Source of the DNA: a virus
IMG/VR virus record: IMGVR_UViG_3300032278_002184
Span: 1-20,326 of that record
Length of the DNA stretch: 20,326 nucleotides
Direction: 5' to 3' (one strand)
Part shown: positions 1-15,543 of the stretch, in pieces
Layout: every line of letters starts with the position of its first letter
Numbering within the stretch: position 1 is the stretch's first letter
Made by a program: the position numbers and the translations under genes
The notes under the pieces: model-generated
Told to the model about the DNA's origin: nothing
Databases searched by the model: none
What the model saw: only the letters and a program-made list of their open reading frames with translations

Positions 1-107
1 AAATTTTCAGTTTTATTCTGTTGCTTTCTTTTTTATCCTGGCGGGTCGGGGGGTGGGGTTCATCTCCACGTGTGGTAACACAGACAACACACTCGCTCTG
101 TCATGTC

Positions 108-127
108 TGTTCTCTTCTGTTCTCTTC
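108..127. repeat. 10-bp tandem repeat, two copies
   Basis: The unit TGTTCTCTTC occurs twice head to tail (108-117 and 118-127) in a pyrimidine-rich strand. No gene is nearby and the function is unknown. Confidence 0.6.
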
Positions 128-312
128 TCATTCCTGCTGTTCAACCTGGGCACCGAGATGAAGGTCGACGGTCCCGGCTGGTCGCCAGGACATTTGAAGT
201 CAACATGACTTCTTCCCCGGCAAGTCGCACAGACCGACCGGTCCGTGTCGATCCCCTGCCACGAGGATCGCCTGGGAGCCGTCCCAGGTGCGGCCATCGG
301 CTCCCCCGGTGG

Positions 313-336
313 CACGCCCGGCAGCACGCCCGGCAG
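313..336. repeat. 12-bp tandem repeat, two copies
   Basis: The unit CACGCCCGGCAG occurs twice head to tail (313-324 and 325-336) in a GC-rich block. A further partial echo follows. It could be a slippage product. Confidence 0.55.
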
Positions 337-369
337 TCGGGCAACCCGGCGGCCCCGTCGCCCGGTCCG

Positions 370-399
370 TTTTCGTTTTCGGCGTTTTCGTTTTCGGCG
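370..399. repeat. 15-bp tandem repeat, two copies
   Basis: The unit TTTTCGTTTTCGGCG occurs twice without mismatch (370-384 and 385-399). Each unit holds a shorter internal repeat of TTTTCG. It lies about 110 bases before the start of the 510-770 gene. Confidence 0.65.
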
Positions 400-509
400 G
401 CCCCCCCTTCGATATTTTGGATCGGACCCCAGGGCTCGCGCGTCCCTTGGTTATTAGTTATCCCACGTTCTCCCACGCGACATTTACGATATTGTTAACG
501 ACATTACAG

Positions 510-770
510 ATGATTGAGACACTGGATCGCAAAACCCCTCAACTGGACACCGAAAGCGTTGAATGGATTGCAGCTCGCGAAGAAAATCAAAAAAAATTTG
601 ATTTACCAATTAAGACGTTGCGCAACTACCGAGCCCCTTCGAAGGTCGGTCGCAAAAAACCCGATAAAATGTTCGGAATTGACCGCGACGGGCGACGCTG
701 GCGACGTCAAGGAACGCCAGGATCAATGGTGTACTACTACGTTCCAAGCCTTCCGAAAAGCGTTGAATAA
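510..770 (+). CDS. Small helix-turn-helix DNA-binding protein (excisionase/MerR-like)
   Basis: An 86-residue protein. The pattern, seen directly, is an N-terminal helical half (about residues 8-40, ending in TLRNYRAPSK), a basic middle (RKKPDK), and a C-terminal stretch with FGIDRDGRRWRR and VYYYVP. A short HTH followed by 'G.D..GR.WRR...YYVP' is how I remember small planctomycete winged-helix proteins that act as excisionase-like or regulatory DNA-binding proteins. The specific role is inference. I chose ATG 510 because upstream in-frame sequence (288-509) translates to low-complexity Arg/Pro-rich protein. No good ribosome binding site is visible. The last codons lie inside a cluster of AAAGCGTTGA repeats (757-798), and another copy sits near the 5' end of the gene (553-562), so autoregulation is possible. 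Confidence 0.6.
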   Translation: MIETLDRKTPQLDTESVEWIAAREENQKKFDLPIKTLRNYRAPSKVGRKKPDKMFGIDRDGRRWRRQGTPGSMVYYYVPSLPKSVE

Positions 771-798
771 AGCGTTGAATCAACGCTTTCAACGCTTT
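757..798. repeat. Clustered palindromic AAAGCGTTGA sites
   Basis: Four perfect copies of AAAGCGTTGA lie within 42 bases. Two are on the + strand (757-766, 769-778) and two on the - strand (780-789, 789-798). The middle pair forms a perfect 10-bp inverted repeat with one central base. A fifth copy lies at 553-562 inside the same gene. The cluster overlaps the stop codon of the 510-770 gene. It could be an operator array or a cruciform. It is a poor intrinsic terminator because no T-run follows. Confidence 0.75.
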
Positions 799-1011: not shown

Positions 1012-1051
1012 ACATAACAAAACATAACAAAACATAACAAAACATAACAAA
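1012..1051. repeat. Four tandem copies of a 10-bp AT-rich repeat
   Basis: ACATAACAAA is repeated four times without mismatch (1012-1021, 1022-1031, 1032-1041, 1042-1051), about 80 bases before the HTH gene at 1132. A 10-bp period keeps every copy on the same face of the helix. This is typical of curved DNA or a cooperative protein-binding iteron array. Confidence 0.85.
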
Positions 1052-1584: not shown

Positions 1585-1671
1585 ACGGGGTGTGCGCTAG
1601 AGGCGCGCTACGTGATGAGTTTCGTGCGCATTAAGGGTTTTTTTCGCACGATATGTGCGCGCTGTGCGCGC
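1585..1671. repeat. TGTGCGC-type repeats with adjacent dyad
   Basis: TGTGCGCGC occurs twice in tandem (1654-1662 and 1663-1671). Related TGTGCGC/CGTGCGC copies occur near 1590 and 1623. TCGTGCG (1622-1628) is inverted as CGCACGA (1645-1651), enclosing a T-run. The segment lies just upstream of the leftward HTH gene. It may act as operator sites or as a weak terminator for transcripts crossing the hub. Confidence 0.5.
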
Positions 1672-1685
1672 TGCAGAAACATCCG

Positions 1686-1820
1686 TTGACACAGGTGACA
1701 CAGGTTGTTTCTTATTAGCCACCTTATATTTCACTTACACGCTTACTAATAACGATTCGTTTCTTGTAAGAATTTGGCCTTCGCGTGCTAATAAGGTCGT
1801 ACCTGTGTCAACCTGTGTCA
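1686..1820. promoter_or_regulatory. TGACACAGG double-site inverted repeat with TTGACA boxes
   Basis: The left arm (1686-1719) has two adjacent TGACACAGG copies followed by a CTTATTAGC end. The right arm (1787-1820) is its inverse: GCTAATAAG, then ACCTGTGTCA, then CCTGTGTCA. The arms differ by a five-base block and one base of spacing, and they enclose 67 bases. The outermost copies include TTGACA, a consensus -35 sequence, at 1686-1691. TCTTAT at 1710-1715 is a weak -10 candidate 18 bases later. The layout fits an operator array overlapping promoters, or replication-initiator sites. Function is inferred from arrangement only. Confidence 0.6.
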
Positions 1821-1837
1821 GAATTCTTCCGCTCATG

Positions 1838-1991
1838 AATCGTCGCAAGTCGTAATCCACGCTTCCGTAAACACTTAGGTTGTTTTCCTACCACATTTGC
1901 GACGATTGCGACGGACTTTCCGGGTAAAGGCGCCTATACGCGTTTGGAGAGATTAACCGGAATGTCCGTCGCAATCGTCGCATCGTCGCAA
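1838..1991. repeat. CGTCGCAA iterons forming a long inverted repeat
   Basis: The octamer CGTCGCAA or its complement TTGCGACG occurs at 1841-1848, 1897-1904, 1906-1913, 1967-1974, 1976-1983 (last base differs) and 1984-1991. Within pairs the spacing is 8-9 bases. The segment 1899-1923 is the inverse of 1957-1981 with one mismatch in 25 bases, around a 33-base loop. Such clustered short iterons plus a long dyad are typical of replication origins or complex operators. Confidence 0.7.
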
Positions 1992-2013
1992 CTCAGGTCG
2001 ATTTCTGCAAATA

Positions 2014-2053
2014 TCTGAATTTAAATTCATAGATTTCTGAATTTGAATTCATA
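2014..2053. promoter_or_regulatory. Twin AT-rich palindromes just upstream of 2063 gene
   Basis: TCTGAATTTAAATTCATA (2014-2031) and TCTGAATTTGAATTCATA (2036-2053) differ at one base and are spaced 22 bases apart, about two helical turns. The core TGAATTTAAATTCA at 2016-2029 is a perfect 14-bp palindrome. The second copy ends nine bases before the ATG at 2063. The position and symmetry are those of operator sites for a dimeric repressor controlling the rightward gene cluster. The binding protein is not known. The HTH and LexA-type proteins in this window are candidates. Confidence 0.7.
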
Positions 2054-2062
2054 CTGAGCTAC

Positions 2063-2407
2063 ATGGGAAGAATGGATCGACCACCAGCAACGGCACATGA
2101 GCCTCTGTGGAGCAAGTGGATAGCCCAATGCCTGGGTGGCGAGTCAGAGCACCGCTTTTTCGATGGAAGCCGGGCCGATGTGTTGGCCGATGGTGTGGTA
2201 TGGGAGGTAGAATGGGCAAAGAAGTGGAAAGAGGCACCTGGGCAAGCCATCCTGTACAGAGTGCTCTCTAGGAGCCTGGAAGGAGGTGTGATATTACTAA
2301 CACGGCGAAAATCCACGGAGAAGCTCTATTATCTCCGCTGTTTACTGGTCTGCGAGCAGTCGAACCTCTTGCTCAGGACATGGGACACGATGCCAGGAGG
2401 CGATTGA
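2063..2407 (+). CDS. PD-(D/E)XK-like small nuclease
   Basis: A 114-residue protein. 'HRFFDGSRADVL' (residues 30-41) supplies Asp39. 'VWEVEWAKKW' (46-55) supplies Glu48/Glu50 and Lys53/Lys54. 'GQAILY' (60-65) matches the QxxxY motif of RecB-type PD-(D/E)XK nucleases. A beta strand VILL (75-78) follows. The acid-acid-lysine-Gln-Tyr order points to a metal-dependent nuclease fold, and small phage relatives of this kind are often called resolvase-like or conserved nucleases. Activity is inferred. The Lys spacing after Glu50 is one residue longer than the classical E-x-K, so the pair Glu48/Glu50 with Lys53 should be treated cautiously. No strong ribosome binding site precedes ATG 2063, and ATG 2072 is possible. 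The gene is first in the rightward cluster, directly behind the twin palindromes at 2014-2053. Confidence 0.65.
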   Translation: MGRMDRPPATAHEPLWSKWIAQCLGGESEHRFFDGSRADVLADGVVWEVEWAKKWKEAPGQAILYRVLSRSLEGGVILLTRRKSTEKLYYLRCLLVCEQSNLLLRTWDTMPGGD

Positions 2408-3143: not shown

Positions 3144-3437
3144 ATGCAACCGATGTTCCCACCGTATCTCAAAAGGTTACCCTGGCTCAGTCAGTGGCAA
3201 GTCAAGAATATGTGCGCGTATGTCATACCGATACCACGAGATACCTTCGAATACTCCGAGGGACGCAAAGCGTATAGGGATCGCACAGCATACGCAAATG
3301 GCAACCGTAATGATCCAAAATGCCCTTATCCGACCGGAAATAGCGAGCGTGTTGGGTGGTACACTGGATGGTACGATGAACGTACTAAAGATCGGATCGG
3401 TGAATTACTGGAAAGAAATGGAATGCTATGGCCCTAG
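3144..3437 (+). CDS. RMF-like small protein
   Basis: A 97-residue protein. The C-terminal half carries 'EGRKAYRD' (39-46), 'CPYP' (60-63) and 'VGWYTGWYDERT' (70-81). The order G..A...., then NPY/CPYP, then W..GW is the signature of the ribosome modulation factor family. Bacterial RMF dimerises ribosomes. In phage genomes RMF-like motifs occur in small proteins of unproven function, so a ribosome role here is inference. The first 36 residues are not recognisable, and translation may start later (for example Met23 at 3210). ATG 3144 has only a weak purine stretch before it. The last bases overlap the start of the LexA-like gene (3428), suggesting coupled translation. Confidence 0.55.
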   Translation: MQPMFPPYLKRLPWLSQWQVKNMCAYVIPIPRDTFEYSEGRKAYRDRTAYANGNRNDPKCPYPTGNSERVGWYTGWYDERTKDRIGELLERNGMLWP

Positions 3438-3643
3438 AACAACTCACAGAACGGCAGGGAGAGGTTCTGGAGAAGCTGAGAGAATCCACCGATTCCAACC
3501 GCTGTTTTACCACCATCCGCCAGCTGGGGGACGCTCTGGGGATCAATAGCCTTAATGGCGTCGTGCATCATTTGAAGGTGCTTGAGCGGAAGGGCTACAT
3601 CACGACGGATAGTAATGTGCATAATGGTATCAGATTGACTTAG
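3428..3643 (+). CDS. Stand-alone LexA-type winged-helix repressor domain
   Basis: A 71-residue protein that is almost entirely a LexA N-terminal DNA-binding domain: 'LTERQGEVLEKL' (helix 1), 'TTIRQLGDALGI' (helix 2), 'SLNGVVHHLKVLERKGYI' (recognition helix and wing entry), and a closing 'GIRLT'. In LexA this domain binds the SOS box. The peptidase half with its Ser/Lys dyad and cleavage site is absent here, because the gene stops right after the wing. It should therefore bind DNA without RecA-dependent self-cleavage and may act as a constitutive repressor, an anti-SOS factor or the phage's own regulator. It overlaps the preceding gene by 10 bases (ATG 3428), consistent with translational coupling. 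Confidence 0.85.
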   Translation: MALEQLTERQGEVLEKLRESTDSNRCFTTIRQLGDALGINSLNGVVHHLKVLERKGYITTDSNVHNGIRLT

Positions 3644-4264: not shown

Positions 4265-4303
4265 TCGTTTAGACCTTTTCAGGGTTGCAAAAGGAACAAG
4301 TTA

Positions 4304-4546
4304 GTGGCGAATACATCCTGTCAATACTGCAACAAGACTTTGAACGATGAAGAACGGATCGATGGAGTGTGCCACGATTGCTGGAGCGGGATTGAAAACA
4401 TAAAGGAACAAGATACCGACGAGGACATGGATGATTGTGAGGATACGGATGAGTTCGACGATTTACTGTCTGAAATCTGGGATATTGATGAAGATGATGA
4501 TGAAGATGAGGAGGAGGATGATGAAGATACCGGAGATGTTAAATAA
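4304..4546 (+). CDS. Zinc-knuckle protein with a highly acidic tail
   Basis: An 80-residue protein. Cys6/Cys9 and Cys23/Cys26 make a compact zinc-binding unit in the first 28 residues. The rest is exceptionally acidic: 29 of residues 37-80 are Asp or Glu, with a long run near the C-terminus. Start GTG 4304 has AAGGAA at 4291-4296, seven bases away. The longer in-frame extension to 4136 runs through the opposite-strand gene and lacks such a site. Acidic tails of this kind in phage proteins can mimic DNA or bind basic host proteins. That function is a hypothesis. The stop overlaps the next start (TAATG at 4544-4548). Confidence 0.7.
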   Translation: MANTSCQYCNKTLNDEERIDGVCHDCWSGIENIKEQDTDEDMDDCEDTDEFDDLLSEIWDIDEDDDEDEEEDDEDTGDVK

Positions 4547-4653
4547 TGCTTTCCTGTAGGCTTAAATGCAATACGTGCGATTCGGAATTTGATCAACCAG
4601 ACAAGGATATATGCCATGCCAGCAAACAGCCGAGTCGGTCGTTGTGTTCGTAA
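4546..4653 (+). CDS. Tiny cysteine-rich peptide
   Basis: A 35-residue frame starting at ATG 4546, which overlaps the stop of the acidic gene (TAATG). GGAG at 4532-4535 is about ten bases upstream. The peptide contains 'CNTC' (residues 8-11) plus Cys4, Cys23 and Cys34, so it could hold a zinc ion. Its 3' end overlaps the start of the basic-peptide gene 4616-4750 by 38 bases. Because it is so short, coding is uncertain, and the overlap start could merely be chance. No family is recognised. Confidence 0.4.
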   Translation: MLSCRLKCNTCDSEFDQPDKDICHASKQPSRSLCS

Positions 4654-7244: not shown

Positions 7245-9138
7245 AATAAATCCGGATGAATATCCGTTTTATGCCCGCGTACCCACGAACATTCTGGAAA
7301 ATCTGAAGTACCGGCAGCGTCTTCTGGACGAAGCGATCAATGATAAGGGGCTGCAGCGTGACCTGCTGGATATGTGCCGCCAGGACACGCTTTTCTTCGT
7401 AAATACCTTCTGCTGGCTGTTCGAGCCCCGTCCGCTGCCAAAGATCGTCCCCTTCGTAATGTGGCCACACCAAGTGCCCGTCTTCGTGGCCATGGAGCAG
7501 TCCATGGGCATCGAGGATGTGGGGCTGGAGAAATCCCGTGGAGAGGGGGCCAGTTGGATGGCCCTCACGCTGGTTTTCAAGTGGTGGCTGTTCAATGAGC
7601 TGTTTGCCTGCGGTCTGGTCAGTCGTAGTGAGGAGGCCGTCGATGACGAAAACGACCCAGATAGCCTCATGTGGAAGCTGGATTTCCAGATGAAACGGCT
7701 GCCCTACTGGATGAAACCGGGGCGTGGCGATCCCAAGGCCGTCATCCGACGCTCCCATGGCCATATCCTTAAAAATGTCACGAATGAGGCCACGATCGTG
7801 GGATACAGCGCTGTGGGTGACGTGGCCAGTGGGGGACGGAAAACCTGCTTCGTGATGGACGAAATGGCCAAATTCCGGGCTGGCAGCGATTATGACGCGA
7901 TGAGCAGCACCCAATACGTCACCGAATGCCGCTACATCATTAGCACGTTCAAGGGGAATACTGGCGCCTATTACGACGCCCTCCGGGGCCCAAGCTCCAT
8001 CAAAAAGCTGTTTTTGGATTGGAAAGATAATCCGACCAGAAATCAGGGGATTTACGAGGTTCAGCAGGGCAACCTAGTCATGCTGGACCCTATCACCAAC
8101 CCATTGCCTAGCAATTACCATATCGAGTGTAAACCGCAGCACGAACAACTGAGAAATCGCGGGTATACCCTTGAAGGAACGATCCGCAGTCCCTGGTATG
8201 ACAAGCAGTGTGCCCGCACAAACGCCACATCGGGCACGATTGCGGAGGAACTGGATCGCGATCCCACCAGATCCGGCACGCCATACTTCGACATCGAGGT
8301 CATCGAGCGGCTCCTGAAGGAGTGCCGCAGCCCAGTTCATATCGGCAATATCGACTTCACCAAGCTGGAAATGAAACCAGAGTTTATCGAAAACCCCCGA
8401 GGTAAGTGGAAATTGTGGTGCAAATTGGGGATGCCACGCAAACCACAATCAGATCGAGACTACACGCTGGGTATAGACATCGCGGCCGGGGGCGGCGGGC
8501 CTATGGCCAGTAACAGTGTGATTTCGGTCGTGGACAACAAGACGGGCCTGAAAGTGGCTGAATATGCCGATCCGTCTGTTTATCCCCATGATCTGGCTGC
8601 GCTGGCATACGCCACCAGTAAGTTCTTCAGCGGTAAAAGCGGCATGGCCTATTTGATCCATGAAAGTAATGGGACCACCGGTAGTCAGTTCAGCCGGGCA
8701 ATCATGGATCTTGGCCATCCCCACCTGTTTTTGCAGTCTGACGAGATGAGGTTAAGCGGAAAACGCACGAGAAAGCCCGGTTTTCATAACCAGGGAATCG
8801 CCCGAGGTGTGCTTTATGGAGGTTATCGAGCATCTCTAGCCGATGGGACATTCACGAATCTTTCACGTGAGGCGTTAACCGAATGCAAGAGTTACGAGCA
8901 CATCGGCCAAGACAAAATCGAACACTCGTCTGCTGCACGAAAAGGGACCGATCCCAGTGGCGCAGGCCACAATCATGGAGACCGATGTACTGCCGACGCT
9001 TTAGCCTGCCGTGCGCTTCGAGACTTTACAAAGCCACTCGATTCCGACGACGAAGAAGAAGATAAAGCACCTCCCGGCAGCTTCATGTGGAGACGCAAAC
9101 AGTCCGAGTTGTCATCGAAGAAAGATGATTGGTGGTAG
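7195..9138 (+). CDS. terL: Terminase large subunit (TerL)
   Basis: A 647-residue protein. It is the ATP-driven motor and headful nuclease that packages phage DNA through the portal. 'GLEKSRGEGASW' around residues 110-121 is the TerL-type Walker A variant, with Lys113. 'CFVMDEMAKF' (about 218-227) is Walker B with Asp222-Glu223. The nuclease domain shows Asp428 ('LGIDIAAGGGG'), an acidic Glu490 ('HESNGTTG') and Asp596/Asp601 ('GDRCTADALA'), the usual ordering of a RuvC/RNase H-like metal site. Residue numbers follow start GTG 7195. ATG 7204 is equally possible and neither has an obvious ribosome binding site. It overlaps the previous gene by 50 bases, suggesting coupling. Its length is in the usual TerL range. 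The C-terminus is Asp/Glu-rich (DSDDEEED). Confidence 0.9.
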   Translation: MARMDRTAYHSEVRDFEINPDEYPFYARVPTNILENLKYRQRLLDEAINDKGLQRDLLDMCRQDTLFFVNTFCWLFEPRPLPKIVPFVMWPHQVPVFVAMEQSMGIEDVGLEKSRGEGASWMALTLVFKWWLFNELFACGLVSRSEEAVDDENDPDSLMWKLDFQMKRLPYWMKPGRGDPKAVIRRSHGHILKNVTNEATIVGYSAVGDVASGGRKTCFVMDEMAKFRAGSDYDAMSSTQYVTECRYIISTFKGNTGAYYDALRGPSSIKKLFLDWKDNPTRNQGIYEVQQGNLVMLDPITNPLPSNYHIECKPQHEQLRNRGYTLEGTIRSPWYDKQCARTNATSGTIAEELDRDPTRSGTPYFDIEVIERLLKECRSPVHIGNIDFTKLEMKPEFIENPRGKWKLWCKLGMPRKPQSDRDYTLGIDIAAGGGGPMASNSVISVVDNKTGLKVAEYADPSVYPHDLAALAYATSKFFSGKSGMAYLIHESNGTTGSQFSRAIMDLGHPHLFLQSDEMRLSGKRTRKPGFHNQGIARGVLYGGYRASLADGTFTNLSREALTECKSYEHIGQDKIEHSSAARKGTDPSGAGHNHGDRCTADALACRALRDFTKPLDSDDEEEDKAPPGSFMWRRKQSELSSKKDDWW

Positions 9139-9214
9139 ACTTGCTATTGACGCGATACTGTTAGCCTGCCAACATTCCAGTTAAGAAGGCTCAACTCAAC
9201 TCAAGGAAACACAG

Positions 9215-9415
9215 ATGGCAAATCCAGATTCGGCTGCTCATATGAGATCATTGGCTCGCGCGGCTGCCGATAAACAGGGCGGCACATTTCGGGAAGGTGG
9301 TGGTGGGCACTTACTGCCAGAGAAGTTCGATAAGAACCGAGGCAGTGATCGCGGCGGATCAAATTCCCCGAAGTCCCAAAACCCACACGGTAGTACACGG
9401 AAGATGAGCTATTGA
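9215..9415 (+). CDS. Small Gly/Arg/Ser-rich phage protein
   Basis: A 66-residue protein between TerL and portal. It is low in hydrophobic residues. The first part is helical ('MRSLARAAADKQ'), and the rest is Gly/Ser/Asn-rich and basic. AAGGAAA (9203-9208) precedes ATG 9215 by about seven bases. It may be a disordered packaging- or head-associated minor protein. I recognise no family. Confidence 0.6.
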   Translation: MANPDSAAHMRSLARAAADKQGGTFREGGGGHLLPEKFDKNRGSDRGGSNSPKSQNPHGSTRKMSY

Positions 9416-9441
9416 CCTGCTAAATCTCATTAGTTAGCAGG
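9416..9441. other. 8-bp hairpin after the small gene
   Basis: CCTGCTAA (9416-9423) pairs with TTAGCAGG (9434-9441) around a 10-base loop, directly after the stop of the 9215-9415 gene. No T-run follows, so it is a weak terminator at most. It may stabilise or process the transcript. Confidence 0.45.
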
Positions 9442-9520
9442 GTTCTATCTCTTAATAAATTCATAAACGGCAGCCTGATGTTACCTTGGCCGAGGTAGTG
9501 TCACGGTGGGCCAACAGACA

Positions 9521-9571
9521 AGCCACGGCAATGCGGTGCCGCATCATCGCTAATGCCGTGGCTTTTTCTTT
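9521..9571 (+). terminator. Intrinsic terminator-like hairpin just before the portal gene
   Basis: AGCCACGGCA (9521-9530) pairs perfectly with TGCCGTGGCT (9554-9563), followed by TTTTTCTTT. A second palindrome, ATGCGG-TG-CCGCAT (9531-9544), is nested in the loop. It ends about 30 bases before the portal start, leaving no space for an ordinary promoter downstream. Any portal transcription must read through it or come from RNA processing here. Confidence 0.75.
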
Positions 9572-9601
9572 GGCCCTAGCCGTTTTAACTAATCGCAAAA
9601 C

Positions 9602-11404
9602 GTGAATCCAGAAAACGCACGAGATCGAGGGGAACTGCGGAAGTCCATGCAATGGTCTGCGAAAAAGTTGCGGCCATTCAGACGCTATCGTTATGAAGCG
9701 ATGAAACAGTACGTCGGGAATAACTATAGCGATAATTCCATGGGCCACAAAATGCCATTGAACATGCTGGCACTGGCTGTTTCTGTGTACCAGCGTTACC
9801 TCGCACCTCCCAGCTTAGAAGTGCTTGTCACTACCCACGTCACCCGTCTCAAGCCGCGAGCGCTAGAATTCGAGATCGGACTAAACCATCTCCTGCGAGA
9901 AATCAATTACGTCCAAAGTCACCGTGAGTGCGTTATGGACGCTCTTTTTGGTATGGGAGTGATGAAAGTGGGTCTGGAAGTTCTCGATACCAAGGAAGAC
10001 CTTGGCTACCTCCATGATTCGGGACAACCATTTGCCGATCCAGTGAGCCTGGACAATTTTATCCAAGATATGTCGGCTACGCGGCACGATAAGGTTGCAT
10101 ATATAGGAGACAAATTTCCAGTTCCCTACGACTGGGTTATGGAACAGGACTGGAACAAAGAGACAAAAAGCAAGTTAAAGACCTCGCAAGGCAGTGGCAT
10201 TGATACCGAAAGCGGAGATTACCGTGCCGAACGACTCAGCCAGGGCAGTGATTACATGGCTGACGAGTACGAGAAGATGGTCTGGCTCTGGAATATATGG
10301 CTGCCACGGGAAAACCTTGTCACGATCCTCCCAGTAGAAGGTGATTTACCCCCTCTGGATACGAAAGAATGGACAGGGCCCGAGCATGGTATGTACCACA
10401 AACTCGGTTTCAACTCCGTACCAGACAGCTTGATGCCTTTGCCTCCCGTCAGCCAGTGGGTCGATCTCAATGATTTAGTTAATCGAATATGGCGGAAGCT
10501 AGGCCGTCAGGCCGAACGTCAAAAAACCAATCTTCTGGTAGCTGGGCCCGCTGCCAAGGACGGCAACAAAGTAATAAACGCCAATGATGGTGAAGCTATC
10601 TATACACAGCAGCCAGATGCGATGAACGAAGTGCGTTTTGGAGGGATCGACAATCAAACTCTGGGGTTCGCTCTTACGATCAAAGACAACCTGAATTATT
10701 TGATGGGAAACGTCGAGTCTCTAGCTGGGTTTTCATCACAGTCCGGCACGCTGGGACAGGACCGCATGTTGCACCAAAGCGCCAACAAGATGGTGGACGA
10801 CATGCAGCAGATGGTCGCCTATTTCAACAAGCGTGTTATGAGCGATATGGCCATGTATATGTGGGAAGATCCACATATCAATCTCCCGCTTGTTAAACGC
10901 ATTGAAGGATCAACCATTGAAATCCCTTTCAATTGGACAGCAGAAAGTCGAGAGGGTGATTTTATCGATTACAACATCGAATTTGAGCCCTATGCGATGA
11001 GATCCAGTACGCCTGGGGAAAGATTGCAATCTCTAAATCAAATCATGATGAACATGGTCTTGCCTGCTATGTCGATGTTCGAACAGCAAGGTATCCAGTT
11101 TGACATGAAGAAATACCTGAAGACGGTCGCCAAATACTCCAATATCGAAGAATTGAACGACATTGTAACGCCCATTGACCCGGACAAGTTGAACCAGGGC
11201 GTCGAGCCGTATCCCGGTAATAACATGATGCCCAAACGATCTCCAATGGGGCCACCACGACAGTACGAACACATCAATGTGGCAGGTGGACCATCACCAG
11301 AAGCCAAGAATCAACAACTGGCCCAGGCAGCACTTAGTGGCGCTATGTCACCTAGTCCACCCAACGCGCCAGCCGCACAGGGCGGCAACCCAAGGAGCCA
11401 GTAA
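9602..11404 (+). CDS. Portal protein
   Basis: A 600-residue protein in the position and size range of podovirus portals, which form the dodecameric ring at the head vertex through which DNA enters and leaves. The N-terminal third is helical and basic ('WSAKKLRPFRRYRYEAM'). The centre has mixed strands ('YIGDKFPVPYDWVM', about residues 165-180). A Met- and Gln-rich helical crown follows near residues 430-460, and the C-terminus is Pro/Ala/Gln-rich and disordered. Motifs are diffuse, so the call rests on order (TerL before, scaffold and capsid after), size and helix/strand layout. GTG 9602 is the first start after an in-frame TAA. No good ribosome binding site is visible before it. ATG 9647 is a later alternative with GGAAG before it. 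It overlaps the next gene by one base (TAATG). Confidence 0.8.
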   Translation: MNPENARDRGELRKSMQWSAKKLRPFRRYRYEAMKQYVGNNYSDNSMGHKMPLNMLALAVSVYQRYLAPPSLEVLVTTHVTRLKPRALEFEIGLNHLLREINYVQSHRECVMDALFGMGVMKVGLEVLDTKEDLGYLHDSGQPFADPVSLDNFIQDMSATRHDKVAYIGDKFPVPYDWVMEQDWNKETKSKLKTSQGSGIDTESGDYRAERLSQGSDYMADEYEKMVWLWNIWLPRENLVTILPVEGDLPPLDTKEWTGPEHGMYHKLGFNSVPDSLMPLPPVSQWVDLNDLVNRIWRKLGRQAERQKTNLLVAGPAAKDGNKVINANDGEAIYTQQPDAMNEVRFGGIDNQTLGFALTIKDNLNYLMGNVESLAGFSSQSGTLGQDRMLHQSANKMVDDMQQMVAYFNKRVMSDMAMYMWEDPHINLPLVKRIEGSTIEIPFNWTAESREGDFIDYNIEFEPYAMRSSTPGERLQSLNQIMMNMVLPAMSMFEQQGIQFDMKKYLKTVAKYSNIEELNDIVTPIDPDKLNQGVEPYPGNNMMPKRSPMGPPRQYEHINVAGGPSPEAKNQQLAQAALSGAMSPSPPNAPAAQGGNPRSQ

Positions 11405-15066: not shown

Positions 15067-15543
15067 ATGGAAAAAGAACAGTTCCCAGAAATTCCAGAAG
15101 TGGAAGCGGCTGCTATTCGCAATGGCCTTATGCTGACAGACCAGCAGGAAATCCCCCTGCTCATGCAGCAAATCTATTGGAAGTTCAAGCGGCACTGGGA
15201 TCATGTTGCCCACGGAATGCAGATGTCACTAACAGCCATATGCTTCCTTGTTCAGACATATTGGAACTCCGAAAAGTTGGAACCTCCAAGTCCTAAAAAG
15301 AAAAAGGCTCCAGTCCGAAATAACAATTCACAGATTACTGAGGCAATGACAAAGTTTGCCGATACCGAGCACGATGCCGATGTACTGGCATGGTGGAGAA
15401 ATCATTGGCGTAAATCCAAATACCAGGGCCTCACCTCTGATGGAAAGCTCGTTCGAGTCGTCGTTCAAGATGGCACAGCAGAAGAAAGAGAGCTTAAACC
15501 TAATCACGTGAAGGTCGCTTTAGTGGAGCAAACTGTTGGCTGA
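15067..15543 (+). CDS. Hypothetical virion-region protein
   Basis: A 158-residue protein. ATG 15067 has GGAG (15056-15059) seven bases before it. It has a Glu-rich N-terminus, then a helical block with Trp/Tyr/His ('YWKFKRHWDHVAHGM'), a basic linker (PKKKKAP), a helical 'TEAMTKFADTEHDAD' and a final strand-rich part ('KLVRVVVQDG'). It is not recognised. It sits between a virion protein and the tail adaptor, so a neck or tail-completion role is possible. It overlaps the next gene by eight bases. Confidence 0.6.
   Translation: MEKEQFPEIPEVEAAAIRNGLMLTDQQEIPLLMQQIYWKFKRHWDHVAHGMQMSLTAICFLVQTYWNSEKLEPPSPKKKKAPVRNNNSQITEAMTKFADTEHDADVLAWWRNHWRKSKYQGLTSDGKLVRVVVQDGTAEERELKPNHVKVALVEQTVG

Follow-up and report, generated by a model that had tools for sequence, protein, structure and literature searches.

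The region between positions 1585 and 2053 of the window (the whole IMG/VR record IMGVR_UViG_3300032278_002184, positions 1 to 20,326, 20,326 bases) contains stacked arrays of short repeats that are built like satellite replication origins. Judging from the sequence, we consider the chances about even that this region, called the hub below, consists of orphan origin modules of the P4/PICI type, which would most likely use initiators supplied in trans or be kept as relics, and which may also serve as operators. The record is that of a tailed phage, with matches to terminase, portal-like and capsid proteins, some of them weak. A sister phage, IMGVR_UViG_3300032820_000032 (L017; 39,732 bases), matches it at 99.97% over 15.7 kb and at 98.06% over 1.6 kb. 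The left end of the window (1-400) diverges from the sister (88.8% over 375 bp, the rest being mostly near-identical), by local variation or a contig-end error.

Four repeat families had been claimed for the hub, and all four were found in it. It contains no coding gene, as had also been proposed; the longest ORF lying wholly within it has 66 aa. Coordinates of the repeats and of the flanking genes are given in Table 1.

Table 1. Repeat features and flanking genes of the hub region (window coordinates)
Feature	Position	Strand	Description
Direct-and-inverted array outside the hub	757-798		AAAGCGTTGA, 2 direct copies (12 bp apart), 2 inverted (9 bp apart)
Direct array outside the hub	1012-1051		four copies of ACATAACAAA, 10-bp period; intergenic, upstream of 96-aa ORF 1132-1422
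HTH_17-like protein, 75 aa	1292-1519	-	leftward of the hub; weak matches to excisionase, TerS/Nu1-type proteins and P2 Cox
Module 1	1585-1672		TGTGCGC iterons at 1591, 1654, 1663; near copy CGTGCGC at 1623; hairpin TCGTGCG/CGCACGA at 1622-1651
Module 2	1685-1820		TGACACAGG, direct at 1687, 1696 (9 bp apart), inverted at 1802, 1812 (10 bp apart)
Module 3	1838-1991		CGTCGCA in the order + - - + + + at 1841, 1898, 1907, 1967, 1976, 1984
AT palindromes	2009-2053		direct repeat of two 14-bp palindromes, TGAATTTAAATTCA (2016) and TGAATTTGAATTCA (2038)
114-aa ORF	2063-2407	+	rightward of the hub; product label nuclease unconfirmed

No other 469 bp of the window are as rich in repeats as the hub. Of its 469 bases, 170 lie in 9-mers that recur within 200 bp; when the region was simulated 500 times with a first-order model, the mean was 12 (sd 15) and the highest value 76, and the best 469 bp in each of 30 simulated whole windows held at most 88 such bases. 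Two 7-mer families reach at least four copies in 200 bp, while 1992 of 2000 simulations had no such family and the other 8 had one; the TGTGCGC family, with three exact copies in the window, stays below this threshold. Chance as an explanation of the repeats is ruled out by both simulations. By the 9-mer measure, the best stretches of a comparison panel were P4 crr (142), AbTJ (119), lambda (108; ori region 104) and P4 ori (103). A 7-mer cluster scan of a small panel gave signals at lambda ori, P4 ori and crr, the epsilon15 repressor sites and the P2 att/Cox region, and none in phage 186; it also signalled at coding or unannotated places (4 of 5 clusters in lambda, 1 of 3 in P4, three in AbTJ).

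The original prediction considered such dense variety unusual. This is borne out for families that combine direct spacing with inverted copies: among 173 sources compared (1.74 Mb, a set enriched for array carriers), the window and the sister each have three in 1.3 kb, and contig L171 ties this number through overlapping forms of one word. It no longer holds once one-way families are counted too, since several of the 173 sources then exceed the hub, those recognised being coding repeats.

The sister keeps all hub families, with modules 2 and 3 unchanged. Its module 1 is longer by ~133 bp, the added units carrying TGTGCGCGC, TGTCCGCGC and a recurring CCTGAAACC...TCGAAAT tail, and thus the length of this module varies between near-identical phages, unless either record contains an assembly error. 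The description of TGTGCGC as both tandem and inverted is correct for the three direct copies; an exact inverted copy is absent from the hub, which has only the looser hairpin, and occurs once in the sister. In Module 2, opposed iteron pairs stand on either side of a spacer (1705-1800) with 64% AT, compared with 49% in the window. Within Module 3, CGTCGCAA is found in three direct (1841, 1967, 1984) and two inverted (1897, 1906) copies, with CGTCGCA additionally at 1976, and the spacers have 56% and 44% AT. Its inverted repeat, reported earlier as 25 bases, is actually 30 nt long and 93% complementary (arms 1898-1927/1953-1982), 25 nt being the gap between the arms. The twin palindromes, 22 bp apart, belong to a stretch with 82% AT and end 12 bp before the ORF at 2063; they are a candidate unwinding element or dimer operator ahead of that ORF.

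Folded as single-stranded DNA, segments 1895-1991 and 1685-1820 gave z values of -8.4 and -8.1, respectively, with 0 of 200 shuffles equally stable in each case; for 1585-1680, z was only -1.8 and 12 of 200 shuffles were as stable. Rfam and tRNA searches produced no match, and no σ70-like promoter was seen in 1100-2500 (shuffles, 0.8). Outside the hub, the AAAGCGTTGA array sits at the 3' end of an 86-aa ORF (510-770), which carries one further internal copy.

Viral contigs were scanned for the hub words. CGTCGCA triplets were retrieved at 54 loci and the TGACACAGG pair at 36 (in both cases one locus is the sister), TGTGTCA triplets with a 10-11-bp period at 39 and TGTGCGC triplets with a 9-bp period at 32. 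One scrambled control word with the TGTGTCA spacing gave 13 loci, or 6 non-redundant ones against 28 for TGTGTCA. A coding lattice, often collagen-like, was assigned to 23 of 53 CGTCGCA, 27 of 32 TGTGCGC and 25 of 35 TGACACAGG loci, and to none of the 39 TGTGTCA or 13 control loci. The mechanical lattice rule dropped L157, L161, L163, L171 and L181 from the non-coding list; of these, the first three match P4 alpha, L171 shares their layout and L181 is a sequence duplicate. Among non-redundant, non-lattice loci, an inverted copy was found within 300 bp at 9 of 28 for TGTGTCA, 9 of 23 for CGTCGCA, 1 of 3 for TGTGCGC, 0 of 8 for the TGACACAGG pair and 0 of 6 for the control.

For every hub word, there are other viral contigs in which an array of it follows a primase-helicase gene on its 3' side. 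Measured from the 3' end of that gene, TGTGTCA arrays lie at 10-221 bp in L123 and 3-198 bp in L151, TGTGCGC arrays at 28-271 bp in L157 and 786-1007 bp in L163, and CGTCGCA arrays at -14 to 220 bp in L091, 63-82 bp in L086 and 11-379 bp in L069. All of them are opposed except that of L086, which is a direct triplet only. The L123 gene combines D5_N, DUF5906 and Prim-Pol; the genes of L151, L157 and L163 match P4 alpha (blastp E 2e-9 to 2e-10), with DUF5906 in their records; the L091 gene has Toprim and AAA_25, and those of L086 and L069 match primase/helicase PHROGs. In L157, L161 and L171, TGTGCGC stands in opposed groups of three and two copies, 187 bp from a long ORF that matches P4 alpha in L157 and L161. 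An AAA_25 helicase is encoded ~3 kb from the array in L074 and L060, and in L103 the array lies inside a DnaD-like loader gene. A related phage group (L074, L083, L104, L060, L095) has CGTCGCA arrays with a GGGGTACGTAGTACCCC hairpin, located upstream of terminase genes in L074. L055 (IMGVR_UViG_3300032820_000140), a contig of 22 kb that shares its metagenome with the sister phage, has five direct CGTCGCA copies in two groups with a 10-bp period at 2016-2186.

The polarity of the copies is shared as well. Read in the TGTGTCA sense, Module 2 has two minus copies (9 bp), 101 bp, and two plus copies (10 bp), and the L123 array has two minus (9), 69 bp and two plus (9). L123 (IMGVR_UViG_2823300744_000001) contains a 16-mer, TGACACAGGTGACACA, identical to that of the hub and in the same polarity order; it differs from the hub in that its array adjoins its own D5_N/DUF5906/Prim-Pol gene and has one word and a spacer of 54% AT. 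The Bordetella phage BPP-1 resembles Module 2, having two direct repeats 9 bp apart (GCCTCGTTTGCCTCG), a 72-bp spacer, AT-rich by eye and with an inner palindrome, and two inverted repeats; in terms of its own word, the order is again two minus (9), 72 bp, two plus (9). An annotated endonuclease gene and terminase genes follow. Unlike the hub, BPP-1 has a single word (GAGGCAA), ~470 bp from its own primase gene. For CGTCGCA, the order in L091 is + - - + + + + -, the first six copies repeating the Module 3 order.

The array layout was also looked for without reference to the hub words. Homologues of the L123 primase-helicase were present in 1040 annotated phage records, and 12 of the 40 listed were chosen for diversity. 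Arrays with at least four copies of a 7-mer and one 8-13-bp step, between -150 and +700 of the gene 3' end, were detected in five of them (Constance, Devera, TM4, BPP-1 and Javan364) and in that interval of the other seven there was none. Eight families lay near the 3' end against five in the remainder of the 12 loci. In three of these five phages (Constance, Devera and TM4), the array overlaps with a gene annotated downstream; in BPP-1 and the satellite Javan364 it is intergenic.

Primase-helicases are not the only neighbours of such arrays. TGTGTCA triplets occur 4-12 bp from tyrosine integrase genes in L121, L127, L128, L146 and L147, and 417 bp from one in L143, so the array design is not unique to origins; at the remaining array loci, neither kind of gene was identified as a neighbour. 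Among 92 array-neighbour proteins (90 of 209, plus those of L157 and L163 added by hand; proteins were excluded for length, distance, duplication or an array within a clear coding gene), Phage_integrase was the commonest family (9), followed by DUF5906 (4) and D5_N, AAA_25, Toprim_3 and Prim-Pol (2 each), these being among the best 25 of 56 families in all. The 12 control-word neighbours (of 14 control proteins) had none of those families and one lambda P-like match. A DUF5906 match was obtained for 11 of the 30 chosen records (10 over the cut-off; window and sister negative) and in 4 of 40 comparison records (2 over the cut-off). The 30 were hand-chosen, some being already known positives and the integrase-adjacent L121, L127, L128, L143, L146 and L147 being left out, and several of the positives have the gene kilobases away from their array; the 40 were mostly coding-lattice loci (not checked one by one), with six control-word loci and L074, a non-coding array. 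No AAA_25 was found in the L055, L021, L151 and L123 records.

Given these integrase neighbours and the excisionase-like HTH gene adjacent to the hub, the arrays could be read as the arm sites of an integrase and the sites of Xis, i.e., an attachment-site region. We rejected this reading, which is very improbable, because an attachment site of this kind would have its integrase in the same element and no Phage_integrase (PF00589) match was obtained in the window or sister records, which may be incomplete. The recombinase that was found is a serine recombinase ~8 kb away, with a dyad beside it seen by eye. In the sister, this 258-aa protein (L017:6377-7153, plus strand) has a Recombinase-like match (residues 13-44) ahead of the Resolvase match (60-207), an unusual order, and the dyad, TGTCAAGAC...GTCTTGACA, lies near L017:6340-6375.

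The layout of the hub is closest to that of known satellite origins. The P4 regions (ori 9086-9809, crr 4291-4590) likewise have short repeats 9-11 bp apart, in opposed groups, with two repeat types at ori. The annotated P4 ori lies between ORF88 (excisionase and regulator, minus strand) and sid, a setting like that of the hub, which is likewise flanked by an excisionase-type gene and, at its opposite end, by rightward genes. P4 alpha binds the P4 type 1 repeat. P4 differs from the hub in encoding this primase-helicase and in carrying the type 1 repeat at ori as well as at crr; the three words of the hub are others, and the search for an alpha-type gene was negative. PICI origins lie immediately 3' of the initiator gene and consist of two iteron sets flanking an AT-rich region (PMC6092414). 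Such sets around an AT-rich region, known from both Gram-positive and Gram-negative PICIs, are complete in Module 2 and partial in modules 1 and 3. The hub differs in having three different modules stacked and in standing 5' of both neighbours, with no primase or initiator gene of its own next to it; since no such gene was found beside it, we do not file it as a PICI or P4 origin but only as built like one. Against an origin-module reading stand this position and the lack of a clear AT-rich spacer in modules 1 and 3, the matching L123 spacer having just 54% AT.

Is the hub then the origin of the phage itself? Its iterons, AT-rich repeats and stable dyads, the two separated cis regions of P4 and the local skew minimum, a shallow one lying a few kb leftward, would fit a main or second origin driven by the phage's own initiator. 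The sister genome argues otherwise. Leftward of the hub (in window orientation) it encodes a DUF3799 (PDDEXK-like) protein, RecT, a replication initiation protein and DnaB, the last being the source of its AAA_25 match. The initiator matches phrog_2509 (E 3.4e-18), and its epsilon15 homologue is 31% identical over residues 3-115. Its gene holds two clusters of a different iteron, CGTAACG/GTTACG (L017:15076-15130 and 15425-15478), which encode near-repeats NALRNVTR. By the 7-mer scan, CGTAACG is not clustered in the hub, nor are hub words clustered in the initiator gene, so the hub does not share iterons with the initiator gene as expected of a lambda O/epsilon15-type origin. The lambda O gene contains lambda's own iterons, and by this analogy the phage's own origin would most simply be placed in its initiator gene.

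At the hub, the sister's cumulative GC skew reaches no global extreme, and a skew-based origin call there was dropped; the shallow local minimum, ~1.5-4 kb left of the hub and followed by a rise, seems to follow gene strand. We consider it decidedly unlikely that the hub is the phage's own origin. The prediction of a replication origin of the element is thus supported as regards origin-like architecture, by the occurrence of the same words 3' of primase-helicase genes elsewhere and by the P4-like setting, and is not favoured as regards the phage's own origin. DUF5906, D5_N, Prim-Pol and tyrosine integrase had no match in the window or sister records, and no other primase was seen in Pfam scans of the large ORFs submitted. 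Since both records are linear and together span ~42.7 kb without closing, this does not prove the absence of a primase-helicase. As the sister has its own initiator with other iterons and no primase-helicase was found, the modules would most likely depend on initiators supplied in trans or be relics.

The genes around the hub bring in another explanation. The HTH label of the left neighbour is weakly supported (HTH_17, E 9e-5), the match being below Pfam's cut-off; the protein also matches P2 Cox (E 0.008) and a TerS PHROG (E 1.3e-4). The nuclease label of 2063-2407 found no backing: there was no match near any Pfam cut-off, none in PHROGs, and the structure model was poor (pLDDT 58), as was that of the other flanking protein modelled (pLDDT 46). 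The 86- and 96-aa ORFs have no Pfam family match and are HTH-like by eye only; for the 114- and 96-aa ORFs, the sister was the sole source of relatives in viral contigs. A 71-aa protein at 3428-3643 consists of a LexA-type DNA-binding domain only (E 2.2e-15), without the peptidase part, and no full CI/Cro-type repressor was present among the scanned ORFs, a subset of all.

Small HTH_17-type proteins (the 75-aa protein, perhaps the 86- and 96-aa ones) might bind the 9-10-bp direct repeats head-to-tail and so regulate the transcription that diverges to the left and right, with the AT palindromes as dimer operators. Apl/Cox/Xis-type proteins, the presumed relatives of the HTH_17-like ones, bind direct repeats about one helix turn apart (PMC7498355). 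The hub spacing resembles this binding mode. As in the operators of phages 186, P2 and lambda, an excisionase-like HTH gene is near; the hub, moreover, lies between divergent genes, and its palindromes stand just ahead of a rightward ORF. Unlike those operators, it has opposed arrays and several unrelated words. Three different words would require three proteins, an origin accounts better than RDF filaments for opposed pairs on either side of a 100-bp AT-rich spacer, and neither a σ70-like promoter nor a Pfam family for the 86- and 96-aa ORFs was found. The direct repeats are spaced by 8-10 bp, against 10-11 bp expected of an RDF (Apl/Cox/Xis) operator, and the HTH_17 match falls below its cut-off. 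Overall, opposed polarity and word matches fit initiator binding better and the position between divergent genes fits operators better. We regard the operator explanation, the main rival, as somewhat unlikely; both roles could be true, since the P4 origin adjoins an excisionase/regulator gene. A master control region with divergent operators, the other half of the original prediction, is a possible reading. The TerS match of the 75-aa protein could instead indicate a packaging (cos/pac) site bound by a Nu1-like small terminase. We rejected this scarcely credible reading, because the large terminase gene starts 5 kb away and the hub words elsewhere adjoin primase-helicase genes instead.

Searches for relatives of the hub retrieved no divergent phage that carries it, only the near-identical sister. 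A DNA search of annotated phages with 4.5 kb around the hub gave no match. At E up to 10, two hub pieces matched 8 and 2 records, all at E 5-6, i.e., chance level. Three of these ten were inspected: in Gordonia phage Daredevil and Mycobacterium phage Steamy, a CGTCGCATCGTCGCA pair occurs close to the genome end, within non-coding DNA that is rich in repeats and does not show the hub layout, and PD491P1 has a short match only. The Daredevil genome end (L108:980-1531) is non-coding and repeat-rich, with several longer CGTCGCAGGTCA repeats in both orientations. A terminase profile found one locus in genome contigs, in a Puniceicoccaceae MAG (39% identity), with no repeat cluster in the 18 kb examined. 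The terminase relatives L006-L008 had no cluster of hub words in the DNA examined; L007 is repeat-dense at its start, apparently through a coding repeat. No plasmid with the L123 array region was obtained at E up to 1, and a search short of a full literature check retrieved no account of a phage with orphan or stacked origins of the satellite type.

Returning to stacked orphan origin modules, the hub would work as follows. TGTGCGC, TGACACA and CGTCGCA modules and an AT-rich tandem palindrome stand between a leftward HTH_17-type gene and a rightward operon. A primase-helicase initiator would bind each array through its DNA-binding domain, and an AT-rich stretch could be opened. The initiators would come in trans from co-resident satellites, prophages or plasmids, and the modules would titrate them or replicate with their help. 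Alternatively, the modules may be kept relics, and they may also act as operators for the flanking genes.

The hub may thus be a borrowed or decoy control region. A more specific proposal, which we hold to be unlikely, is a multi-specificity origin mimic that titrates the initiators of several competing satellites or prophages, or borrows whichever initiator is present. The principle of titration is illustrated by ectopic lambda origins, which arrest lambda (PMC4488673). Conflict between phages and satellites acts on satellite origins: the ICP1 nuclease Odn requires the PLE origin iterons for cutting (PMC8263062). The results also suggest a way of recognising origins, orphan ones included, in viral DNA without annotation, namely by opposed arrays of 7-mers spaced 8-11 bp apart, which often lie 3' of primase-helicase genes; the rule is a loose one, holding in 5 of the 12 named phages. 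A phage with several origin modules of the satellite kind and no matching initiator would directly test whether origin decoys or origin borrowing occur in nature.
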